Source: Gammaproteobacteria bacterium (GTDB taxonomy: Bacteria; Pseudomonadota; Gammaproteobacteria; SZUA-152). Taken from it: a DNA stretch of 64,000 nucleotides. The notes under the pieces are model-generated. The model made no database searches, was not told the DNA's origin, and was given only the letters and a program-made list of their open reading frames with translations. The DNA lies in NCBI GenBank assembly GCA_021647705.1, contig JAKIUF010000002.1:1-64000 (forward strand), written 5' to 3'. The stretch's first letter is position 1. Every line of letters starts with the position of its first letter. This document shows positions 38,943-47,225 of this stretch, piece after piece. A program made the position numbers and the translations under genes.

Positions 38943-39452
38943 ATGAAGAAAAAACTCATCTTTGTAGGGTTGTTTGTATTTTTTGTGGGGTTAACCTATG
39001 CCATTTTTAAAGAAAGTGGCTGGCAAATAAATACGCAAGAACGAGTAAAAATTTACGAAAAAGATTATCCCAGTCTCTATTCAATCGAAAGGGCTTTAGA
39101 TATTTTGGAAGAGGTTGAGTATGCTGCTATTGTATACACAACGAAGGCAATTCGTCACAATGATAGTTGGTTTTTCAGGTATATAATAACGCCTTTACAT
39201 TGGCAAGCTTCTGCCAGTGCTGATGTGCTTTATACTGTGATGGGAGAGGAGTACGAGACTATCGAATATGGGGCAACATCAAAAAATATATCGAATTATG
39301 CTGTTTTTGTAGCGTTATGCGTATCGGATGATATGGCATTATATGCTCCAGACAATGGATATATATTTCCAGCAACAGAAGAGCTTATTATTTATTTTAA
39401 AAATAGAAAAATAAATTCCTCTGCAACAAAAAATAATGGCACATGTCAATAG
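38943..39452 (+). CDS. Unknown membrane-anchored or secreted protein
   Basis: 169 residues from ATG 38943; an upstream in-frame ATG at 38889 would bury the signal. MKKKLIFVGLFVFFVGLTYA is a signal peptide or N-terminal anchor. The rest is soluble, with YAAIVYTTKAIRHNDSWFFR and an IEYGATSKNISNYAVFVALC stretch. No family recognised. It stands alone, downstream of the MITE-like element and upstream of the PspA-associated operon. Confidence 0.6.
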   Translation: MKKKLIFVGLFVFFVGLTYAIFKESGWQINTQERVKIYEKDYPSLYSIERALDILEEVEYAAIVYTTKAIRHNDSWFFRYIITPLHWQASASADVLYTVMGEEYETIEYGATSKNISNYAVFVALCVSDDMALYAPDNGYIFPATEELIIYFKNRKINSSATKNNGTCQ

Positions 39453-39687
39453 AAAGCTGCATAAATAAGAGGAGCTGTAAAATATTTCGACAGATTGTTT
39501 AGTGTGTTTTAAAAAATAAAAGATTAAATGTTTATGTAATTAATTTTTCCAAACCATCCTCACAGATTATAAAAATAATGATATGTCAATTATTCGGACC
39601 CCTGTAGTTTGTTGCAGGGGGTTGTGTTTTGTGAGGACTGAAAACTCGACATGTAATTAATAGAACAAACGGAACAAAAAGCTAAAA

Positions 39688-41400
39688 ATGAACCAGTTTC
39701 CATCAAAATTATCAGTACGTCAGCATGACTTTGTATTATTTGCCATCATGGGTATTTTAGCAGGTTGTGGGCTTATTTATGAATATTTGCTGTCACATTA
39801 TGCGGGGCGTATTTTAGGCGCGGTTGAACACGTCATTTTCGCCATGATTGGCGTAATGATAGTTGCAATGGGGCTGGGTGCTTTTGCAGCGCGTATTTTT
39901 AAATCGTATTTTAATGCTTTTGTCTGGTTGGAAGTCAGTATTGCCTTAATCGGTGTTAGCTCAGTGTTGGTGTTAGCCATGACTACTGCGCTGGCAAATA
40001 TTTTGCCGCAAATTCTGATGGAAACGTTTTTATTGCCCCCGGATTTAATTCCCCGTGGTGGCATGATTCTTTGGGCACATAAAATAGCCGCTATCATGCC
40101 GTATGTGGTCGGCTTTATTTTAGGGTTTCTTATAGGCATGGAAATTCCTTTAATTGCCAGTATTCGAGAAACCATTTATGGCGAGCATGTTGCACATAAT
40201 GCTGGCTCGGTTTATGGCGCAGACTATATTGGAGCGGGTATAGGTGCGGCCATTTGGGTTATGTTTATGCTGAGCCTACCTCCTACTACTGCGGCGGTAA
40301 TCACTGCCAGTGTTAATTTGTTGATTGGCTTGCTGTTTTATGGCGTGTATCGAAAACGCATTCGATTTGGTGTGTGGGTGGTCAGTGCGCACCTTTTGGT
40401 GGCCGGTGTTGTTATCGCGATTGCATTCAACGGTATCGATTGGGATAACGCCATGGAAGATTTGCTGTACAAAGATAAGGTCATTTTCAGTTATAACACC
40501 GAATATCAGCACGTTACCATTACTGAGCGTATTATGGACCCGGCCAAACCAAAAATCGTTTCGATGTTCATCAATGGACGCTCACAATTCGCCAGTAACG
40601 ATGAGGTGATTTACCATGCCATGTTGGTCGCGCCGGTCATGCATGCCTCTGCCCGCCATGACAATATTTTAATCATTGGAGGAGGGGATGGTCTCGCGCT
40701 ACGTGATGTATTGCGCTGGCAGCCTCAGTCGGTTGAGCTGATCGATATTGATGCCGCTATTGTGCAATTTTTTACCACTCCCCGTATCGAGAAGGGAAGA
40801 GTTGTTAATCAGGCTTTGCTGGATTTAAACCAGCATGCTTTCAGTGACCCACGGGTTCAGACGCATTTTGGCGATGCTTTCCTGAAGGTGGATGAACTGA
40901 TTCAGCAGCAGCGTTTGTATGATGTCATCATTGTGGATTTGCCCGATCCTAGCCACCCGGATCTGAACAAATTATATTCTGCACGCTTTTATGCCAAACT
41001 GAAAACACTGTTGACTGGTGATGGTGCTATGGTGGTGCAATCCACTTCGCCTTATCATGCCAAAAATACCTTTTTATCCATTGGTAAAACAGTGCAATAT
41101 GCAGGCTTTATGCATGTGGAGCAGTATCATCATAATGTGCCCAGTTTTGGCGAGTGGGGCTGGACCATTGCGACTAAAAACGGTGTGTCTGCAAAAGCCC
41201 GGCTGGAACAAAAAGACCGTCTGGAGGTCAATGATGGCTGGTCTACTCGAGGTGTTTTGTTGGCGGCATTTGAATTTAATCGACACTTTTTTGATCGGCT
41301 GGAAAATATAAAAGTCAATAGAATCAATAACCAAGCAGCCTATCAGTATCACAAGGCTGACTGGGAAAAACAGCAGGGAATATATATTATCGACAAATGA
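39688..41400 (+). CDS. Membrane-bound spermidine-synthase-like aminopropyltransferase
   Basis: 570 residues. The first 230 form about seven membrane helices (for example FAIMGILAGCGLIYEYLLSH); the rest is a spermidine-synthase (SpeE) fold with the SAM-type loop ILIIGGGDGLALRDVLRW, ELIDIDAAIV, and VIIVDLPDPSHPDLNKLYSA. Transfers aminopropyl groups from decarboxylated SAM to a polyamine, probably at the membrane. It leads the operon with DUF2170 and PspA, a partnership seen repeatedly around PspA genes. Confidence 0.88.
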   Translation: MNQFPSKLSVRQHDFVLFAIMGILAGCGLIYEYLLSHYAGRILGAVEHVIFAMIGVMIVAMGLGAFAARIFKSYFNAFVWLEVSIALIGVSSVLVLAMTTALANILPQILMETFLLPPDLIPRGGMILWAHKIAAIMPYVVGFILGFLIGMEIPLIASIRETIYGEHVAHNAGSVYGADYIGAGIGAAIWVMFMLSLPPTTAAVITASVNLLIGLLFYGVYRKRIRFGVWVVSAHLLVAGVVIAIAFNGIDWDNAMEDLLYKDKVIFSYNTEYQHVTITERIMDPAKPKIVSMFINGRSQFASNDEVIYHAMLVAPVMHASARHDNILIIGGGDGLALRDVLRWQPQSVELIDIDAAIVQFFTTPRIEKGRVVNQALLDLNQHAFSDPRVQTHFGDAFLKVDELIQQQRLYDVIIVDLPDPSHPDLNKLYSARFYAKLKTLLTGDGAMVVQSTSPYHAKNTFLSIGKTVQYAGFMHVEQYHHNVPSFGEWGWTIATKNGVSAKARLEQKDRLEVNDGWSTRGVLLAAFEFNRHFFDRLENIKVNRINNQAAYQYHKADWEKQQGIYIIDK

Positions 41401-41457
41401 TTGACATAATATGTCTCGGAAACATATTATGTCCCACTCTTGGATACCGGAGGAAAT

Positions 41458-41883
41458 ATGAGCACTGAAAAACTAGAGCAATTGATGAAGGGTTTAACGG
41501 ATAATCAAACATCCCATGGCGTCAGCCTGTCGGTTGAAATGTTTGATGCCGACAATAAGGTGGCCTGCATCAAACTGGAAGACCGGGAAGAATTCCCCAT
41601 CTATATGACCGCCGATGAAGGGCAAATACTGTGCATCAGTTATTTATTTGGAGACGCACAGGTAGACCCGGACAAGCGTACCGCCATGGTGGAAGCCATG
41701 CTGATGATGAATGTGTCCATTCCACTGTCAGCGTTTTCGAAAATCGGTGATCAGTACATTATGTTTGGTGCGCTGTCACCCAAAGCGAATATTGATGAAT
41801 TATTACATGAAATAGAACTGCTCAGTGACAATGTGTTGGAAGCCATTGAAGCAGTATCGGATTATTTAAAGGAGGCTGCGTAA
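41458..41883 (+). CDS. DUF2170 (YjfI-like) protein
   Basis: 141 residues from ATG 41458 with GGAGG four bases upstream. Contains HGVSLSVEMFDADNKVACIK and EFPIYMTADEGQILCISYLF, typical of DUF2170/YjfI. Always close to pspA-like genes; function unknown. The next gene starts after three bases. Confidence 0.87.
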   Translation: MSTEKLEQLMKGLTDNQTSHGVSLSVEMFDADNKVACIKLEDREEFPIYMTADEGQILCISYLFGDAQVDPDKRTAMVEAMLMMNVSIPLSAFSKIGDQYIMFGALSPKANIDELLHEIELLSDNVLEAIEAVSDYLKEAA

Positions 41884-41886
41884 GCC

Positions 41887-42582
41887 ATGGGTATATTTAA
41901 CAAGTTATTGACCGCCGTGCGTGGTGGTGCCACTGAAGTGGGTGAGGCGATTGTTGATTCACAGGCAATTCGTATTCTGGAACAGGAAATACGAGACTCC
42001 AAAAAAGCCCTGAACGATGCCAAGACCGGCCTGACATCGATTATGGCTGAAAAAATGGGTGTTGATCGAAAAGTAAAAGATCTTGGTGAAAAAATCAAAG
42101 AGCATGAAGGCTATGCTATTCAGGCAATGGACAAGGGTGATGAAAATTTAGCATTGGAAATAGCGACCAAAATTGCTGAATTTGAACATGAACTGTCCAT
42201 TCAGCAAGGTATACGTGATGGTTACGACACCAAGGTCGTCAGCCTGAAAAAAATGATCCGTCAAAGCGAGCGCAATATTCAAGCCATGGATCGCGAAGTG
42301 TCGGTGGTTAAAACAACGGCAAAAGTACAAAAAGCCAATGATCTGGCTTCGGCTAAATTTTCAGGCTCAAATTCATCGTTGAACAGTGCAACGGACTCAC
42401 TTGAGCGCATCAAGGCACGTCAGCAAAAACGTGAAGACCAGGCAGCAGCAGCAATGGAACTGCATTCCGATGAAAGCGGTGATGACCTGCAAGCCAAACT
42501 GAAAAATGCCGGTATTGTTGACTCGGGCAGCTCAGGCTCGTCGATTCTGGATCGGTTGAAAAAACAGAAAGGGCAGAGTTAG
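41887..42582 (+). CDS. PspA/IM30 family membrane-stress protein
   Basis: 231 residues. MGIFNKLLTAVRGGATEVGE is the amphipathic N-terminal helix region, followed by a long coiled coil (AIRILEQEIRDSKKALNDAK onward). ESCRT-III-like proteins that bind and mend the inner membrane. Corresponds to YjfJ in the E. coli yjf operon. Confidence 0.92.
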   Translation: MGIFNKLLTAVRGGATEVGEAIVDSQAIRILEQEIRDSKKALNDAKTGLTSIMAEKMGVDRKVKDLGEKIKEHEGYAIQAMDKGDENLALEIATKIAEFEHELSIQQGIRDGYDTKVVSLKKMIRQSERNIQAMDREVSVVKTTAKVQKANDLASAKFSGSNSSLNSATDSLERIKARQQKREDQAAAAMELHSDESGDDLQAKLKNAGIVDSGSSGSSILDRLKKQKGQS

Positions 42583-42584
42583 CT

Positions 42585-43226
42585 ATGGGGCTGTTTAGAT
42601 CGATATTGGGTGGTGGCGATAAGTCACCACCCGCTCGCACCGTTGAATCCCCAAAAGATTTACAGCCAGGGGATATGTTAAAAATGGAATTTGCTGAACA
42701 AACACTGATATCCGGGCAAACATTAAAAGTGTCTGAACAGGTGTTTTATGACATCAGTGCCGTCGAAAACTGCAAAACGGTTTCCATTCTGGAAGGAGCT
42801 GATCAACGTGTATTGCTATCCGTCAGCACAGTGAATCCGGAGCGACCTCTGGAACTGGCCATATCCGTTCTGCCCGAGAAGGTCTTTGATCTTTTTGGTC
42901 ATGATCAGTTTGTAGCCATTTTTGATGAGCCAGACAATACCGATCATCGTATTCAGCGCCGCACCAAGGTGGAATTGAATGAATTGCAAGGGTTTGTCGG
43001 TGATTCTTATTTTCAGGAACGCACCAACGAAGCCTATCGCAGCAAGAAAGACTGCCGCAGTGAAACACTCACCGATGCCGACTGGGATGGATTTGATTAT
43101 AAATTGCTGGTCACGAATGATCGATGCCATGCCGTTCGCATTGAAGTGTTTGATGGGGGCCGCACTGATGTTTATCTGATTGCTTATCTGGCATTAAATA
43201 AAGTAGAAGAATATTGGCTTGCGTAA
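42585..43226 (+). CDS. YjfK/DUF2491-like protein
   Basis: 213 residues. MGLFRSILGGGDKSP, then LQPGDMLKMEFAEQTLISGQ, WxxY-less sandwich strands, ending VYLIAYLALNKVEEYWLA. The order with the neighbours (yjfI-yjfJ-yjfK) supports YjfK; the LQPGDMLKM stretch also resembles DUF4178. Function unknown. Confidence 0.78.
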   Translation: MGLFRSILGGGDKSPPARTVESPKDLQPGDMLKMEFAEQTLISGQTLKVSEQVFYDISAVENCKTVSILEGADQRVLLSVSTVNPERPLELAISVLPEKVFDLFGHDQFVAIFDEPDNTDHRIQRRTKVELNELQGFVGDSYFQERTNEAYRSKKDCRSETLTDADWDGFDYKLLVTNDRCHAVRIEVFDGGRTDVYLIAYLALNKVEEYWLA

Positions 43227-43227
43227 T

Positions 43228-43548
43228 ATGACCGCAAAAAAAAATATCCCCAGCGCCTGGACGAAATCAGATAAAAATATTCGTGCCGTTCAGGTGATAT
43301 TTGAGTTGGAGCAGGAACAATTCAAAGCGGTACGCATTAAAGCCATTGAGCAGAATTTAAGCCCGTCAGATTACATTCGTGATATTGTCGGTTTACCACG
43401 AAAAAAACCCATACGTCCCCGATTGAGCATCAGCCTGTCAGCCGAAGATTATGAAATATTAGCCAAGCGTTACCAGTTGGCAGCAGATATGAAAGAAAAA
43501 ATCCGTGAAAAAATCAAAGAGGAACTGGTTAGCGCGACAAAAAAATGA
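43228..43548 (+). CDS. Small charged protein of the PspA operon
   Basis: 106 residues from ATG 43228, one base after the previous stop. NIRAVQVIFELEQEQFKAVR, then IKAIEQNLSPSDYIRDIVGLP and a repeat-like SISLSAEDYEILAKRYQL. The pattern of a short strand followed by two helices, present twice, hints at ribbon-helix-helix-like units. No firm family; probably a regulator or adaptor for the operon. Confidence 0.7.
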   Translation: MTAKKNIPSAWTKSDKNIRAVQVIFELEQEQFKAVRIKAIEQNLSPSDYIRDIVGLPRKKPIRPRLSISLSAEDYEILAKRYQLAADMKEKIREKIKEELVSATKK

Positions 43549-43570
43549 GTCACCGGCTTAACCCACCTTT

Positions 43571-44671
43571 ATGCATTTAATTCTACGTTATTTTATAAAA
43601 AAACGTGACAGACTAAGGCTCGGTGCGCAGCATGATTTATTGCGTTCCATCAGGAATTCGTGTTTTTTATTAGTGGTTATTTTCATTTTGCACAGTGCTT
43701 TTATGGTGCATTATGAGGGGCTGAGCATAGGAGATGCGGTCTGGTTGACATTCACCACGGCCACTACCGTGGGCTATGGCGACATATCAGCCAGTACCAC
43801 GCAGGGGCGTATTGCCACCGTTTTTCTGATTTATCTCGGCGGTATTTTTATATTAGCCAAAGTGGTTGGCGATTATTTTGATTACCGTTTTGCCGTGCGT
43901 GAACAAAAAACCAAAGGTCATTGGAGTTGGGATATGAACCAGCATATCGTTATTTTAAATACCCCTTCGCATTCTGGTGAGCGTTACCTGCAACGACTGA
44001 TACAACAGTTCAGGGCAACCGCTCACTATAAAGACACCACCATTTATCTGCTGACCCGGCAGTTTCCGCAAGGTTTACCGGACTTCATAACCCAGCTCGA
44101 CGATGTAGTGCATTACAATGGCAGCTCCAGCAACCCGCAAGACCTGGTTGCCGTTTGTGTTGCGCAGGCCCGCGATATTATTGTGCTGGCAAAAGATGAA
44201 AACGATGAAAACTCCGATGGGCGCACATTTGATATTTTGCATCGTTTAAAAGATTTAAACGTCAAAGCCAACATCCTGGCGGAATGTGTTGAAGATAGCA
44301 ATCGTAAGCGGCTTGAAGATGCTGGGGCGAATATTGTACTACGACCCATTCGTGCATACCCTGAAATGATTGTGCGTGCCTTTGATGCGCCGGGCTCGGA
44401 GCGCATTATCGAAAACATGTTTAACAGCGAAGGGGACGAATACCGGCGATACGATGTGGAAATAAGCAACATGGACTGGTGTGATATAGTCGCACGCCTG
44501 ATTACCCATGACGCCGGCATTGCCGTAGCCTACATTGATCGTCACAGCCAGGAGCTGGTGTACAATCCGCCCGCCCGCGCAAAACCGGATATGCAGGCAT
44601 TGATTACTATCAGCAAGGATACCAATATGCACAGCAATGATGATGTGAGAGCATTGATTTCACAGGAGTAA
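43571..44671 (+). CDS. Potassium channel with TrkA-N-like domain (Kch-like)
   Basis: 366 residues. Two membrane helices flank the selectivity filter TTVGYGD (65-71); a C-terminal part of about 250 residues has a Rossmann-type RCK/TrkA-N domain (IVILNTPSHSGERYLQRLIQ, IIVLAKDENDENSDGRTFDI). Ion channel genes recur in PspA/DUF350 operons. Start at ATG 43571 has only a weak ribosome-binding site. Confidence 0.9.
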   Translation: MHLILRYFIKKRDRLRLGAQHDLLRSIRNSCFLLVVIFILHSAFMVHYEGLSIGDAVWLTFTTATTVGYGDISASTTQGRIATVFLIYLGGIFILAKVVGDYFDYRFAVREQKTKGHWSWDMNQHIVILNTPSHSGERYLQRLIQQFRATAHYKDTTIYLLTRQFPQGLPDFITQLDDVVHYNGSSSNPQDLVAVCVAQARDIIVLAKDENDENSDGRTFDILHRLKDLNVKANILAECVEDSNRKRLEDAGANIVLRPIRAYPEMIVRAFDAPGSERIIENMFNSEGDEYRRYDVEISNMDWCDIVARLITHDAGIAVAYIDRHSQELVYNPPARAKPDMQALITISKDTNMHSNDDVRALISQE

Positions 44672-44674
44672 ACA

Positions 44675-45616
44675 ATGCAAACAAATAAATTGAGGATATT
44701 GACTTATTCAGTGGGCCTCTTGCTGATAGTAGCTTTGTTATCAGCCTGCGGAAACCGCTTTGAAGAACGGTTACGTGGCGTCCACAAAGATGTGCAATCC
44801 AGCCTGACATATTTAAAAAATCAGCTGGATGCGCGTGAGTTAAGTAATGCCTTATTGCTTGATAAGTATGCCAACGCATTAATTCAGCAAAAACCGGATT
44901 ATGCGGATATTGCTACATTATTAAAAAAAGAAGCGACCTCGCAAGGTAAAGCCTATATCACACTGAGCGAGCGATTGGCCGCAGTCAGTCTAACGCCAAC
45001 CAGTACAGAAGCAGCCGCTAGCGGTTTACAAGAATTACAATTAATCAATTCAGCTGCTGATGTTTATGAGTTCAATAACAGCTTAGCAGATGTTGTCAAT
45101 ACGCTTGCCGCATTATCTGATGGCCAACTGGCGGTCATCAATGTGCCTGCATCACAGCAAGCCAGTGCACAGAAGGCCAACGCGCTGGTCGGTAATCCGG
45201 CCTACGGCGGTTGGACTCAAAACAGTAGCGGGCAATCTTTTTGGGCCTGGTATGGCATGTACGCCATGTTTAGTAATGTAATGGGCATGAATCGTTATAA
45301 CTACAATTCATGGTCATCACGTCCCCATTACAGTTATTACGGAAATTATGGTCGTAACCGCTGGGGCTCAAATACGGATGTTGCCCGGAATCAGAATTTA
45401 AGCAAACGCTATCCCAGTAGATATAACAAGCCCAGTGCAGCAACCAACGCCCGTTATGCAAGAACAGCCAAACGCTCATCCAGTTTTGGCGGGGCTTCAT
45501 CAAAATCGACATCAAAGTCCTCATCAAAATCATCCTCATCTCGCTACAGCTCATATGGCTCCAGTAGTCGAAGTTCGTCATATTCAGGCTCACGCAGCTC
45601 TCGCTCAGGCAAATAA
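44675..45616 (+). CDS. Lipoprotein with Ser/Arg-rich tail
   Basis: 313 residues. Lipobox LLSACG at the end of the signal, then a helical domain (FEERLRGVHKDVQSSLTYLK), a central aromatic stretch (SFWAWYGMYAMFSNVMGMNR, RPHYSYYGNYGRNRWGSN), and a C-terminal 70-residue tail dominated by serine and arginine (SSKSTSKSSSKSSSSRYSSY). Anchored in the outer or inner membrane. Starts three bases after the channel gene. Confidence 0.8.
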   Translation: MQTNKLRILTYSVGLLLIVALLSACGNRFEERLRGVHKDVQSSLTYLKNQLDARELSNALLLDKYANALIQQKPDYADIATLLKKEATSQGKAYITLSERLAAVSLTPTSTEAAASGLQELQLINSAADVYEFNNSLADVVNTLAALSDGQLAVINVPASQQASAQKANALVGNPAYGGWTQNSSGQSFWAWYGMYAMFSNVMGMNRYNYNSWSSRPHYSYYGNYGRNRWGSNTDVARNQNLSKRYPSRYNKPSAATNARYARTAKRSSSFGGASSKSTSKSSSKSSSSRYSSYGSSSRSSSYSGSRSSRSGK

Positions 45617-45627
45617 GGAAACAAACA

Positions 45628-46545
45628 ATGTTCATGGACTTTGCTAATGTAGGTATAGGTGTAGACATAGGCTTGGCATCCTATTATCTGGTGGATTTTC
45701 TGATTGCCGTGGCATTATTAAGTGCGATGCGTTTTTTTGCCGGTCTGGTTGGTAACGTCTCCGCCACAAAAGAAATTTCACATAATGACAACAAAGCGTT
45801 TGGCGTCTCGTTGGCAGGCGCGATGGTAGCAGTTAGCATTATGCTGATGGGTGTTGTGTCCGGTGAGGCCGGTTATAACCTGGTCAATGAAGCATTGACG
45901 GTGGTTTTGTTTGGCGTTATTGGCATAACGCTTATGTGGATAACACGTATTGCGTTTGATCGTATCTCATTTCCTGGATTATCAATTCACGATCAAATCA
46001 TGAAGGGCAACATGTCTGCTAGCATCATTGATGCCTGCAATATGATTGCAACGGCCATTATTATCAAAGGGGCCATGGTCTGGGTCGATGGCGATATGAC
46101 AATGGCCATTTTTGCCGTCGTCATCAGTTTTATTGCCTCACAGATCATCATGGCGCTGGCAACATTGTACCGTGTCAAAGTATATGAAAAACGCCATAGT
46201 CATAAGGGAAAACAGCTGCACCATGCCATTGAAGAAGATAATGTCGCTTTGGCACTTCGTTTCAGTGCTTACCGAATCGGTATTGCCATCGCTGTAAGCG
46301 CAGCCTTCACTGCGGTGGAATATGAAGCCGATGCCTTCCTGTTTGTTTTTGTGCTGTGGTTTGCTGTTGCATTGGTTTTGTTTGTTTTATTAACCTTGAT
46401 CGCCATTGTGATTCGTCATGGTGTATTGCCTCGCATTAATATCGGAGAAGAAGTCGGCGAACAGGGTAATATTGCGGTTGGTGTCATCGAGGGCAGCATT
46501 TATATCGTCGTCGGTTTATTACTGGCCGGACTCATTGGAGCCTGA
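45628..46545 (+). CDS. Double DUF350 membrane protein (YjfL-like)
   Basis: 305 residues, about eight hydrophobic segments in two similar halves, each a DUF350 unit (FLIAVALLSAMRFFAGLVGN, NDNKAFGVSLAGAMVAVSIM). Corresponds to YjfL in the E. coli yjf operon. Function unknown. Confidence 0.85.
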   Translation: MFMDFANVGIGVDIGLASYYLVDFLIAVALLSAMRFFAGLVGNVSATKEISHNDNKAFGVSLAGAMVAVSIMLMGVVSGEAGYNLVNEALTVVLFGVIGITLMWITRIAFDRISFPGLSIHDQIMKGNMSASIIDACNMIATAIIIKGAMVWVDGDMTMAIFAVVISFIASQIIMALATLYRVKVYEKRHSHKGKQLHHAIEEDNVALALRFSAYRIGIAIAVSAAFTAVEYEADAFLFVFVLWFAVALVLFVLLTLIAIVIRHGVLPRINIGEEVGEQGNIAVGVIEGSIYIVVGLLLAGLIGA

Positions 46546-46562
46546 TTTTTGTCAAAAACCTA

Positions 46563-47225
46563 ATGCCGCTCACATCTCGACAGCAATTCATCCTTTTTAT
46601 TATTGCCGCCTTTATTGTTGATTATTTACCCTTCATCAACTTACCTTTTTTGTGGAGTGAGACTTTTTTTCATGAAATAAGCCATGGGCTTGCGGCACTC
46701 TTAACGGGTGGCATGATTCATAATATCACTTTGTCCTTTGACGGTTCCGGTGTGTGCACCACCGGGGGTGGCTCGCGTTTTTTAATCAGCTTTTCAGGTT
46801 ATGCCGGCAGTGCGTTATGGGGACTGCTTATTTACAGTGTTGCGGACGCCCTCTCCCCCAAAAATGCAAAAATCATGGTTGGTGTAATGGTATTGATGTT
46901 GGGCGTAACATTACTATTGTGGGCGCGCGATATACCGACCATTATTATTTTGCTGGTTTTGTTGTTGATGTATGCCCTGCCGCTCGTTAAATCATTACGC
47001 TTCAGTATTAAATTTTTTATTCAATTAGTGGGTGTTTTTGTCATGCTGGACGCCATCCGCAGTCCGTTATATTTGCTGGATGGTCGCGATCTTGGTGACG
47101 GTGCCAGCTTGGCTCAACTAACGGGTCTGCCAGAGTTTTTTTGGGTGGCATTATGGTTTGTTATTGCGGTTGGCTGTTTGTATCGCTTGTGGGCAAGGCC
47201 AGTGACGACAGCAAAAGCTTCGTAA
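46563..47225 (+). CDS. M50B-like membrane metalloprotease
   Basis: 220 residues, about six membrane helices. HEISHG (37-42) is the zinc HExxH in a membrane helix, followed by GLAALLTGG and a long later helix; resembles the M50B peptidase-like family (PF13398). Overlap-close to DUF350 (17-base gap), so probably the last gene of the operon. Intramembrane proteolysis would fit a stress-signalling role, but the substrate is not known. Confidence 0.8.
   Translation: MPLTSRQQFILFIIAAFIVDYLPFINLPFLWSETFFHEISHGLAALLTGGMIHNITLSFDGSGVCTTGGGSRFLISFSGYAGSALWGLLIYSVADALSPKNAKIMVGVMVLMLGVTLLLWARDIPTIIILLVLLLMYALPLVKSLRFSIKFFIQLVGVFVMLDAIRSPLYLLDGRDLGDGASLAQLTGLPEFFWVALWFVIAVGCLYRLWARPVTTAKAS

Follow-up and report, generated by a model that had tools for sequence, protein, structure and literature searches.

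What controls the nine genes that follow one another on the forward strand at positions 39688-47225 of a 64,000-nucleotide stretch of gammaproteobacterial DNA (GCA_021647705.1, contig JAKIUF010000002.1; hereafter the window), and what joins their products, which centre on the stress protein PspA, into one system? The source genome comprises 4.4 Mb in 82 contigs, and the named relatives nearest to it are Gammaproteobacteria assembled from metagenomes. The initial annotation of the window described a membrane-stress operon and only listed the strand-helix-helix protein encoded from position 43228; this protein is the informative part of the cluster. From the comparisons below we consider it highly probable that the cluster is a PspA-based envelope-stress module under its own regulator, in which the 43228 product binds the 13-bp palindrome GACATAWTATGTC and represses its own eight-gene unit, with a wider set of genes under its control in related families.

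The site in question is a double palindrome, GACATAATATGT-CTCGGAA-ACATATTATGTC (41403-41433), lying between the genes for a membrane-anchored polyamine aminopropyltransferase (gene 1) and a DUF2170 protein (gene 2). The palindrome is written GACATAWTATGTC and is normally present in two copies. The elements on which the argument turns are as follows.

41403..41415, + strand: operator copy 1, GACATAATATGTC, a 13-bp palindrome without a second exact match anywhere in the 4.4-Mb genome
41421..41433, + strand: operator copy 2, AACATATTATGTC, with one mismatch; both copies are exact in close relatives
41401..41430, + strand: sigma70-type promoter, TTGACA-18-TATTAT, agreeing with the consensus at 11 of 12 bases, better than any other promoter match nearby
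43228..43548, + strand: gene 5, a tandem ribbon-helix-helix (RHH)-like protein, the proposed autorepressor/regulator (PF21983 NikA-like, 0.0012); its presence tracks the operator

Placed 18 bp apart, the two palindromes cover both the -35 and the -10 box of the DUF2170 promoter. The same palindrome, usually in two copies, is found in relatives at spacings of 15, 18 or 33-39 bp (46 in one case), and it overlaps the TTGACA box in 28 of 31 loci examined; the TTGACA-18-TATTAT arrangement itself recurs in L003, L013 and L032-L034. Because genes 1 and 2 are separated by 57 nt that contain a strong promoter as well as the operator, the cluster is probably transcribed as 1 + 8 genes. The proposal of a nine-gene operon with tiny gaps is therefore retained in part: all nine open reading frames do lie on the + strand, and the single transcription unit probably gives way to two. 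The aminopropyltransferase gene stands upstream of the operator, so in the window's genus it is probably outside operator control. Seven loci with a separate lipoprotein-DUF350-aminopropyltransferase unit carry a second operator before the lipoprotein gene, an arrangement that predicts polyamine synthesis to be under operator control there.

One indication that the 43228 product acts at this site is that the operator follows its gene. Around 90 further DUF2170 loci were gathered by searches of the class, the phylum and the order, the nine gene families were mapped in each, and 80 comparable DUF2170-pspA loci entered a two-by-two test in which the site was sought from 350 bp upstream to 150 bp downstream of the start of the DUF2170 open reading frame. 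Of the 39 loci that have the RHH gene, 37 carry the operator, as against none of the 41 that lack it (Fisher, 9e-21). As the loci are not independent, the count was also taken by GTDB family, giving 17 of 18 against 0 of 24 (7e-11). Both misses among the RHH-bearing loci are technical: at L068 the start of the DUF2170 gene had been called wrongly, with an exact site at +395, and L083 runs into a contig edge. Two loci with the site (L024 and L069, which come from incomplete genomes and break off after gene 4) and one with neither site nor RHH gene (L014) were left out of the test. Three loci (L013, L018 and L022) have the site and no local RHH gene, which is found elsewhere in their genomes.

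The association is with the RHH gene rather than with the operon's other members. Where an aminopropyltransferase or DUF4178 gene occurs without an RHH gene (L005, L064, L065) there is no site, and where the RHH gene occurs without either of these (L019, L030, L049, L079, L088, L095) the site is present. Furthermore, in each of three genomes with two DUF2170 loci, only the copy with the RHH gene carries it (L030 of the pair L030/L029, L019 of L019/L020 and L079 of L079/L080). The form of the operator also varies with the protein: CCCATA half-sites at four loci correspond to one RHH clade (support 0.78), and GACATT half-sites at three loci to another. Co-evolution of the protein with its site would produce such a pattern, although either variant may stem from a single event. 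Upstream of DUF2170 in seven loci that lack the RHH gene (L006, L011, L015, L017, L027, L031 and L077) we observed a different palindrome, TTACATGTAA, present twice, about 21-26 bp apart, in five of the seven; this is probably the operator of another regulator.

Searches of whole genomes did not take the RHH gene as their starting point. Across 369 genomes of the class, the double site gave five matches, all directly before DUF2170-pspA, and the reversed double site used as a control gave none. Of 25 genomes with the RHH gene, 24 carry between 1 and 10 exact single sites, the remaining one (G380) having near matches; 24 of 25 other genomes had none, and the reversed single site was absent from all 50. 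In the window genome the sole exact site is the operon's own; a site with a single mismatch at G000:C29 was not counted, since it lies inside a coding region.

Further exact sites occur in twelve of the RHH-bearing genomes, belonging to six GTDB families. All 42 that were fetched are intergenic, as against a background of about 19% (P = 5e-31), and 29 of them precede genes for pspA (with pspC), SPFH/NfeD, flotillin/YqiJ, HtpX or NhaA. By number of GTDB families, the targets are HtpX (five), SPFH (five), flotillin (three), NfeD (three), NhaA (two), YqiJ (two) and pspA-pspC (one). Double exact operators were also seen at L128 (9475-9510) and L137 (3003-3039), before a DUF5666 protein and an unidentified short open reading frame, respectively, neither of which belongs to the target classes named above. 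From the distribution of sites we conclude that the 43228 product probably represses its own operon and that in relatives it is likely to be the master regulator of an envelope-stress regulon not described before. Our fuller proposal, which we think reasonably likely, is that a hitherto undescribed envelope-stress regulon of Proteobacteria, independent of PspF and sigma54, has as its master regulator the tandem RHH protein encoded in the DUF2170-PspA operon, that the GACATAWTATGTC operators of this protein link the polyamine/PspA/DUF350 module with pspA-pspC, with SPFH-NfeD and flotillin scaffolds, with HtpX and with NhaA, and that its input is partner switching by DUF2170 or PspA.

The protein itself has 106 residues and by sequence contains two strand-helix-helix repeats, with the patterns ..KAxQVAFD..GLSPSDQIRxIL.. 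and ..RPRLTVSLS..DY..L... Several observations weigh against the assignment of this protein to the site, or temper it. Its RHH profile match in Pfam is below threshold (NikA-like, 0.0012, 19.4 against 27 bits), and a single homologue matched RHH_1 (0.0069). The structural modelling suggested for the 43228 product succeeded to the extent that an AlphaFold2 monomer shows four helices (29-41, 46-54, 72-82 and 89-105); it contains no strands and is of low confidence (pLDDT 71, shallow alignment), and the model gave no significant match in Foldseek, only VIA-align scores of Z <= 2.4. A PDB sequence search with the RHH alignment returned nothing usable. Comparison of residues from both strands with the variant operators disclosed no simple residue-to-base code. 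One genome, G780 (L086, L146), has a split operon with an RHH gene and no recognisable GACATA operator. In addition, 13 of the 42 extra sites precede genes without an obvious envelope link (RND-type membrane-fusion, SulP and M17 genes, and unknowns). Finally, the two-by-two test included some of the loci that had served to derive the motif; the single-site counts in 50 genomes, the double-site search in 369 and the intergenic placement of the extra sites are less circular. As the profile match is weak and the model lacks strands or a structural counterpart, we call the protein 'RHH-like', and its DNA binding is inferred from the genomics.

The sequences themselves show the site, that it overlaps the promoter and occurs together with the gene, how specific it is across whole genomes and which genes are its targets. 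The mechanism that we propose adds to these the physical binding of the 43228 product, repression over activation and an inducing signal. At rest, the RHH protein would sit on the double palindrome and block RNA polymerase, repressing its own eight-gene unit from DUF2170 onward. Envelope damage would lift this repression, and PspA, the DUF350 protein, the channel, the lipoprotein and the M50B-like protein would be made; in relatives, derepression would also yield HtpX, NhaA and SPFH/NfeD. The wider set of pspA-pspC, SPFH/NfeD, flotillin/YqiJ, HtpX and NhaA would come under this protein in several related families. The signal might enter by partner switching through DUF2170 and/or PspA. Our best guess for the partner is DUF2170, which has a type III secretion chaperone-like fold and a negative effect in P. 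aeruginosa, or else PspA.

Other accounts of the same data have to be weighed against repression by the 43228 product. The palindrome could belong to another transcription factor of the same genomes, with the 43228 protein serving a different role such as plasmid-like partition or assembly. The sub-threshold RHH assignment and the genome that has the protein without the site (G780) are in keeping with this idea; we nonetheless judge it quite improbable, given that the site tracks the RHH gene and not the other operon genes, even between paralogous loci of one genome, and that operator variants follow RHH clades. Nor does activation at these sites fit well. Palindromes near promoters would suit an activator, and a few regulators act both as activator and repressor. 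The site, however, covers the -35 TTGACA in most loci and the -10 box as well in the window, and a promoter so close to consensus would need no activation, which leaves an activating role improbable. Least probable by far is ordinary control by PspF and sigma54, the arrangement proposed for the P. aeruginosa bac operon, where a sigma54 site has been suggested before bacA (PMC10948618). No match of the TGGCAC-N5-TTGC type was found in 39401-41470, no PspF scored above the family cut-off in the window genome, and the promoter that is present is a near-consensus sigma70 promoter. We rejected absence of PspF as a general rule for RHH-bearing genomes, most of which have PspF elsewhere.

A different kind of alternative concerns the effectors and does not exclude repression by the 43228 product: polyamine and K+ flux would keep the membrane potential stable, PspA would patch the membrane and the M50B-like protein would signal damage. 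This idea, put forward in the initial annotation, is compatible with the gene content. The TVGYGD filter and the aminopropyltransferase motifs are intact, speD lies near or beside the aminopropyltransferase gene in five relatives, and NhaA and PspA are among the co-regulated genes. Against it, the aminopropyltransferase gene stands upstream of the operator in the window's genus and is missing from many RHH-bearing operons, so polyamine synthesis is not obligatory, and the nucleotide motif of the channel's RCK domain is lost in the window's clade (HIVILNTPSHSG in place of HILIIGWNGxRT). As the principal explanation of the cluster we find it doubtful.

The genes that surround the proposed regulator are listed here.

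39688..41400, + strand: gene 1, membrane-anchored polyamine aminopropyltransferase (PF01564, 1.6e-31, residues 306-498; NF002956, 2.5e-173, residues 6-562)
41458..41883, + strand: gene 2, DUF2170, CesT/Tir-type chaperone fold, YjfI/BacA family (PF09938, 1.6e-30; NF050185 BacA, 1.2e-18, below cut-off)
41887..42582, + strand: gene 3, PspA/IM30, YjfJ type (PF04012, 6.4e-43)
42585..43226, + strand: gene 4, DUF4178-like beta-rich protein (through homologues only: DUF4178 in 4 of 16, best 3.2e-5)
43571..44671, + strand: gene 6, two-transmembrane K+ channel with RCK domain, MthK-like (PF07885, 3.3e-12; PF22614, 5.6e-9; MthK, 7.3e-9)
44675..45616, + strand: gene 7, Ser-rich lipoprotein (lipobox LLSAC-G, Ser-rich tail; a conserved member in 27 loci)
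45628..46545, + strand: gene 8, double DUF350 membrane protein, YjfL family (PF03994, 1.1e-39, two stretches)
46563..47225, + strand: gene 9, M50B-like membrane metallopeptidase (PF13398, 4e-41; HEISHG motif)

Adjoining DUF2170 and PspA genes form the core of the cluster. The aminopropyltransferase exceeds the cut-off of its NF002956 model (577 against 472 bits), reads as hydrophobic over its N-terminal half and retains the S-adenosylmethionine-binding GGGDG, within a conserved IGGGDG. The DSTDP-like motifs of solved spermidine synthases are replaced by DLPDP, and YHE by YHA; with these motifs the substrate may be something other than plain putrescine. The gene 4 product has no direct Pfam match of its own, and its AlphaFold2 model has a pLDDT of 32. 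It had been called YjfK-like, a name that does not hold given the DUF4178 matches of its homologues and the filing of E. coli YjfK as DUF2491 (PMC11237479). Gene 6 had likewise been termed Kch-like: with two transmembrane segments, an intact TVGYGD filter, an RCK domain and no voltage sensor, it aligns to MthK and, being of that ligand-gated type, stands closer to it. Because its RCK nucleotide-binding motif is changed in the window's clade, the channel ligand may differ from that of relatives. HEISHG (HExxH) is present in 14 of 14 M50B homologues, and L[LI]DGRxxGDG, which fits a further metal ligand, in 13 (it is altered in L068); the protein is a predicted metallopeptidase of the site-2 type.

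The module recurs over many Proteobacteria with varied gene order, so that adjacency is conserved well beyond the source organism; the outcome that the initial annotation had named as refuting its idea, no conserved adjacency elsewhere, is thus not what is seen. By number of mapped loci, PspA was found in 88, DUF350 57, the DUF4178-like family 42, RHH 40, the channel 39, the aminopropyltransferase 31, the lipoprotein 27 and M50B 14. Written with A for aminopropyltransferase, D for DUF2170, P for PspA, K for DUF4178-like, R for RHH, C for channel, L for lipoprotein, T for DUF350 and M for M50B, the order is ADPKRCLTM in the window's genus and LTADPKR, LTADPKRC, MLTADPKR and others elsewhere. 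Content is kept while order is shuffled, which speaks for the nine families being a functional set. M50B was at first suspected to be a chance neighbour; it proved to belong to the operon in three GTDB families, of which two are distant, and in one of the three it lies on the opposite side of the lipoprotein gene. By this recurrence M50B is a genuine member; it and the K+ channel are recurrent additions to the published module.

The nine-gene cluster as such is already largely published. Ravi et al. (2024) describe a 'second group' of CesT/Tir-PspA operons, e.g. AAN56744-AAN56747, with a 7TM-fused spermidine synthase-like protein, DUF2170, PspA, DUF4178, a Ctha_1186-type lipoprotein and an 8TM YjfL-type DUF350 protein, and note an RHH protein 'in some cases' in the CesT/Tir-PspA group and a K+ channel in a sister group (PMC11237479). 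The window shares with the second group the DUF2170-PspA dyad, the spermidine synthase-like domain with N-terminal transmembrane segments, the double DUF350 protein and a lipobox-bearing lipoprotein, and additionally has the channel and M50B; the main text of that paper names neither an operator nor targets nor a regulon for the RHH protein. The claim that the joint system has no assigned job was too strong, the core being described there. E. coli yjfIJKL, whose expression is raised in heat-adapted E. coli through what was attributed to a promoter deletion, likewise has DUF2170 (YjfI), a PspA homologue (YjfJ) and DUF350 (YjfL), whereas no RHH gene, aminopropyltransferase or M50B is reported for it (PMC12492005). 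The P. aeruginosa bacABCDEF operon shares the DUF2170-PspA pair and differs in its proposed sigma54 promoter and in having no spermidine synthase or RHH protein reported; when bacA, its DUF2170 gene, is disrupted, the remaining Bac proteins go up 6- to 13.5-fold, which suggests a possible part for DUF2170 in negative control (PMC10948618). A membrane-stress function, as originally suggested, is supported by the PspA core, by these published relatives (PMC11237479, PMC10948618, PMC12492005) and by the co-controlled genes pspA-pspC, SPFH/NfeD, flotillin, HtpX and NhaA.

The classical Psp system (PspF-pspABC) is also a PspA-centred envelope-stress response, and in one family the new site itself has pspA-pspC as a target; the classical system uses a PspF/sigma54 activator, whereas the window's cluster has a sigma70 promoter and a repressor-like operator. 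Small strand-helix-helix repressors acting on repeated palindromic operators are familiar from MetJ, CopG, NikR and TraY, the last of which has two strand-helix-helix units in one chain. The 43228 product differs from all four in its operator and its envelope-stress targets, and from MetJ, CopG and NikR also in its two units per chain. Our literature search found no paper linking an RHH protein with this operator to envelope stress and, as far as that search shows, regulator, operator and regulon are undescribed. YjfI/YjfJ-type PspA, SPFH/NfeD, flotillin/YqiJ, HtpX and NhaA have so far been studied apart; one regulator and site joining these membrane-protection families would define a regulon and supply both a reporter and a genetic means of studying their joint function and signal, and the long-noticed link between polyamine and PspA genes gains a testable regulatory frame.

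Some minor features complete the description. Defence-system models matched the window only weakly and irrelevantly. A terminator-like hairpin lies 5' of gene 1 (39599..39620, + strand), a consensus match only, of a class that is not above chance. The short S-adenosylmethionine decarboxylase gene speD is near or directly beside the aminopropyltransferase gene in five relatives, at the following positions.

L003, 4962-5378: speD
L013, 2258-2752: speD
L062, 14243-14650: speD
L067, 10381-10743: speD
L069, 9780-10157: speD

In the window genome speD is located elsewhere, away from the aminopropyltransferase gene, and a second, weaker PspA/IM30 homologue lies at G000:C51:41622-42101 (L002).

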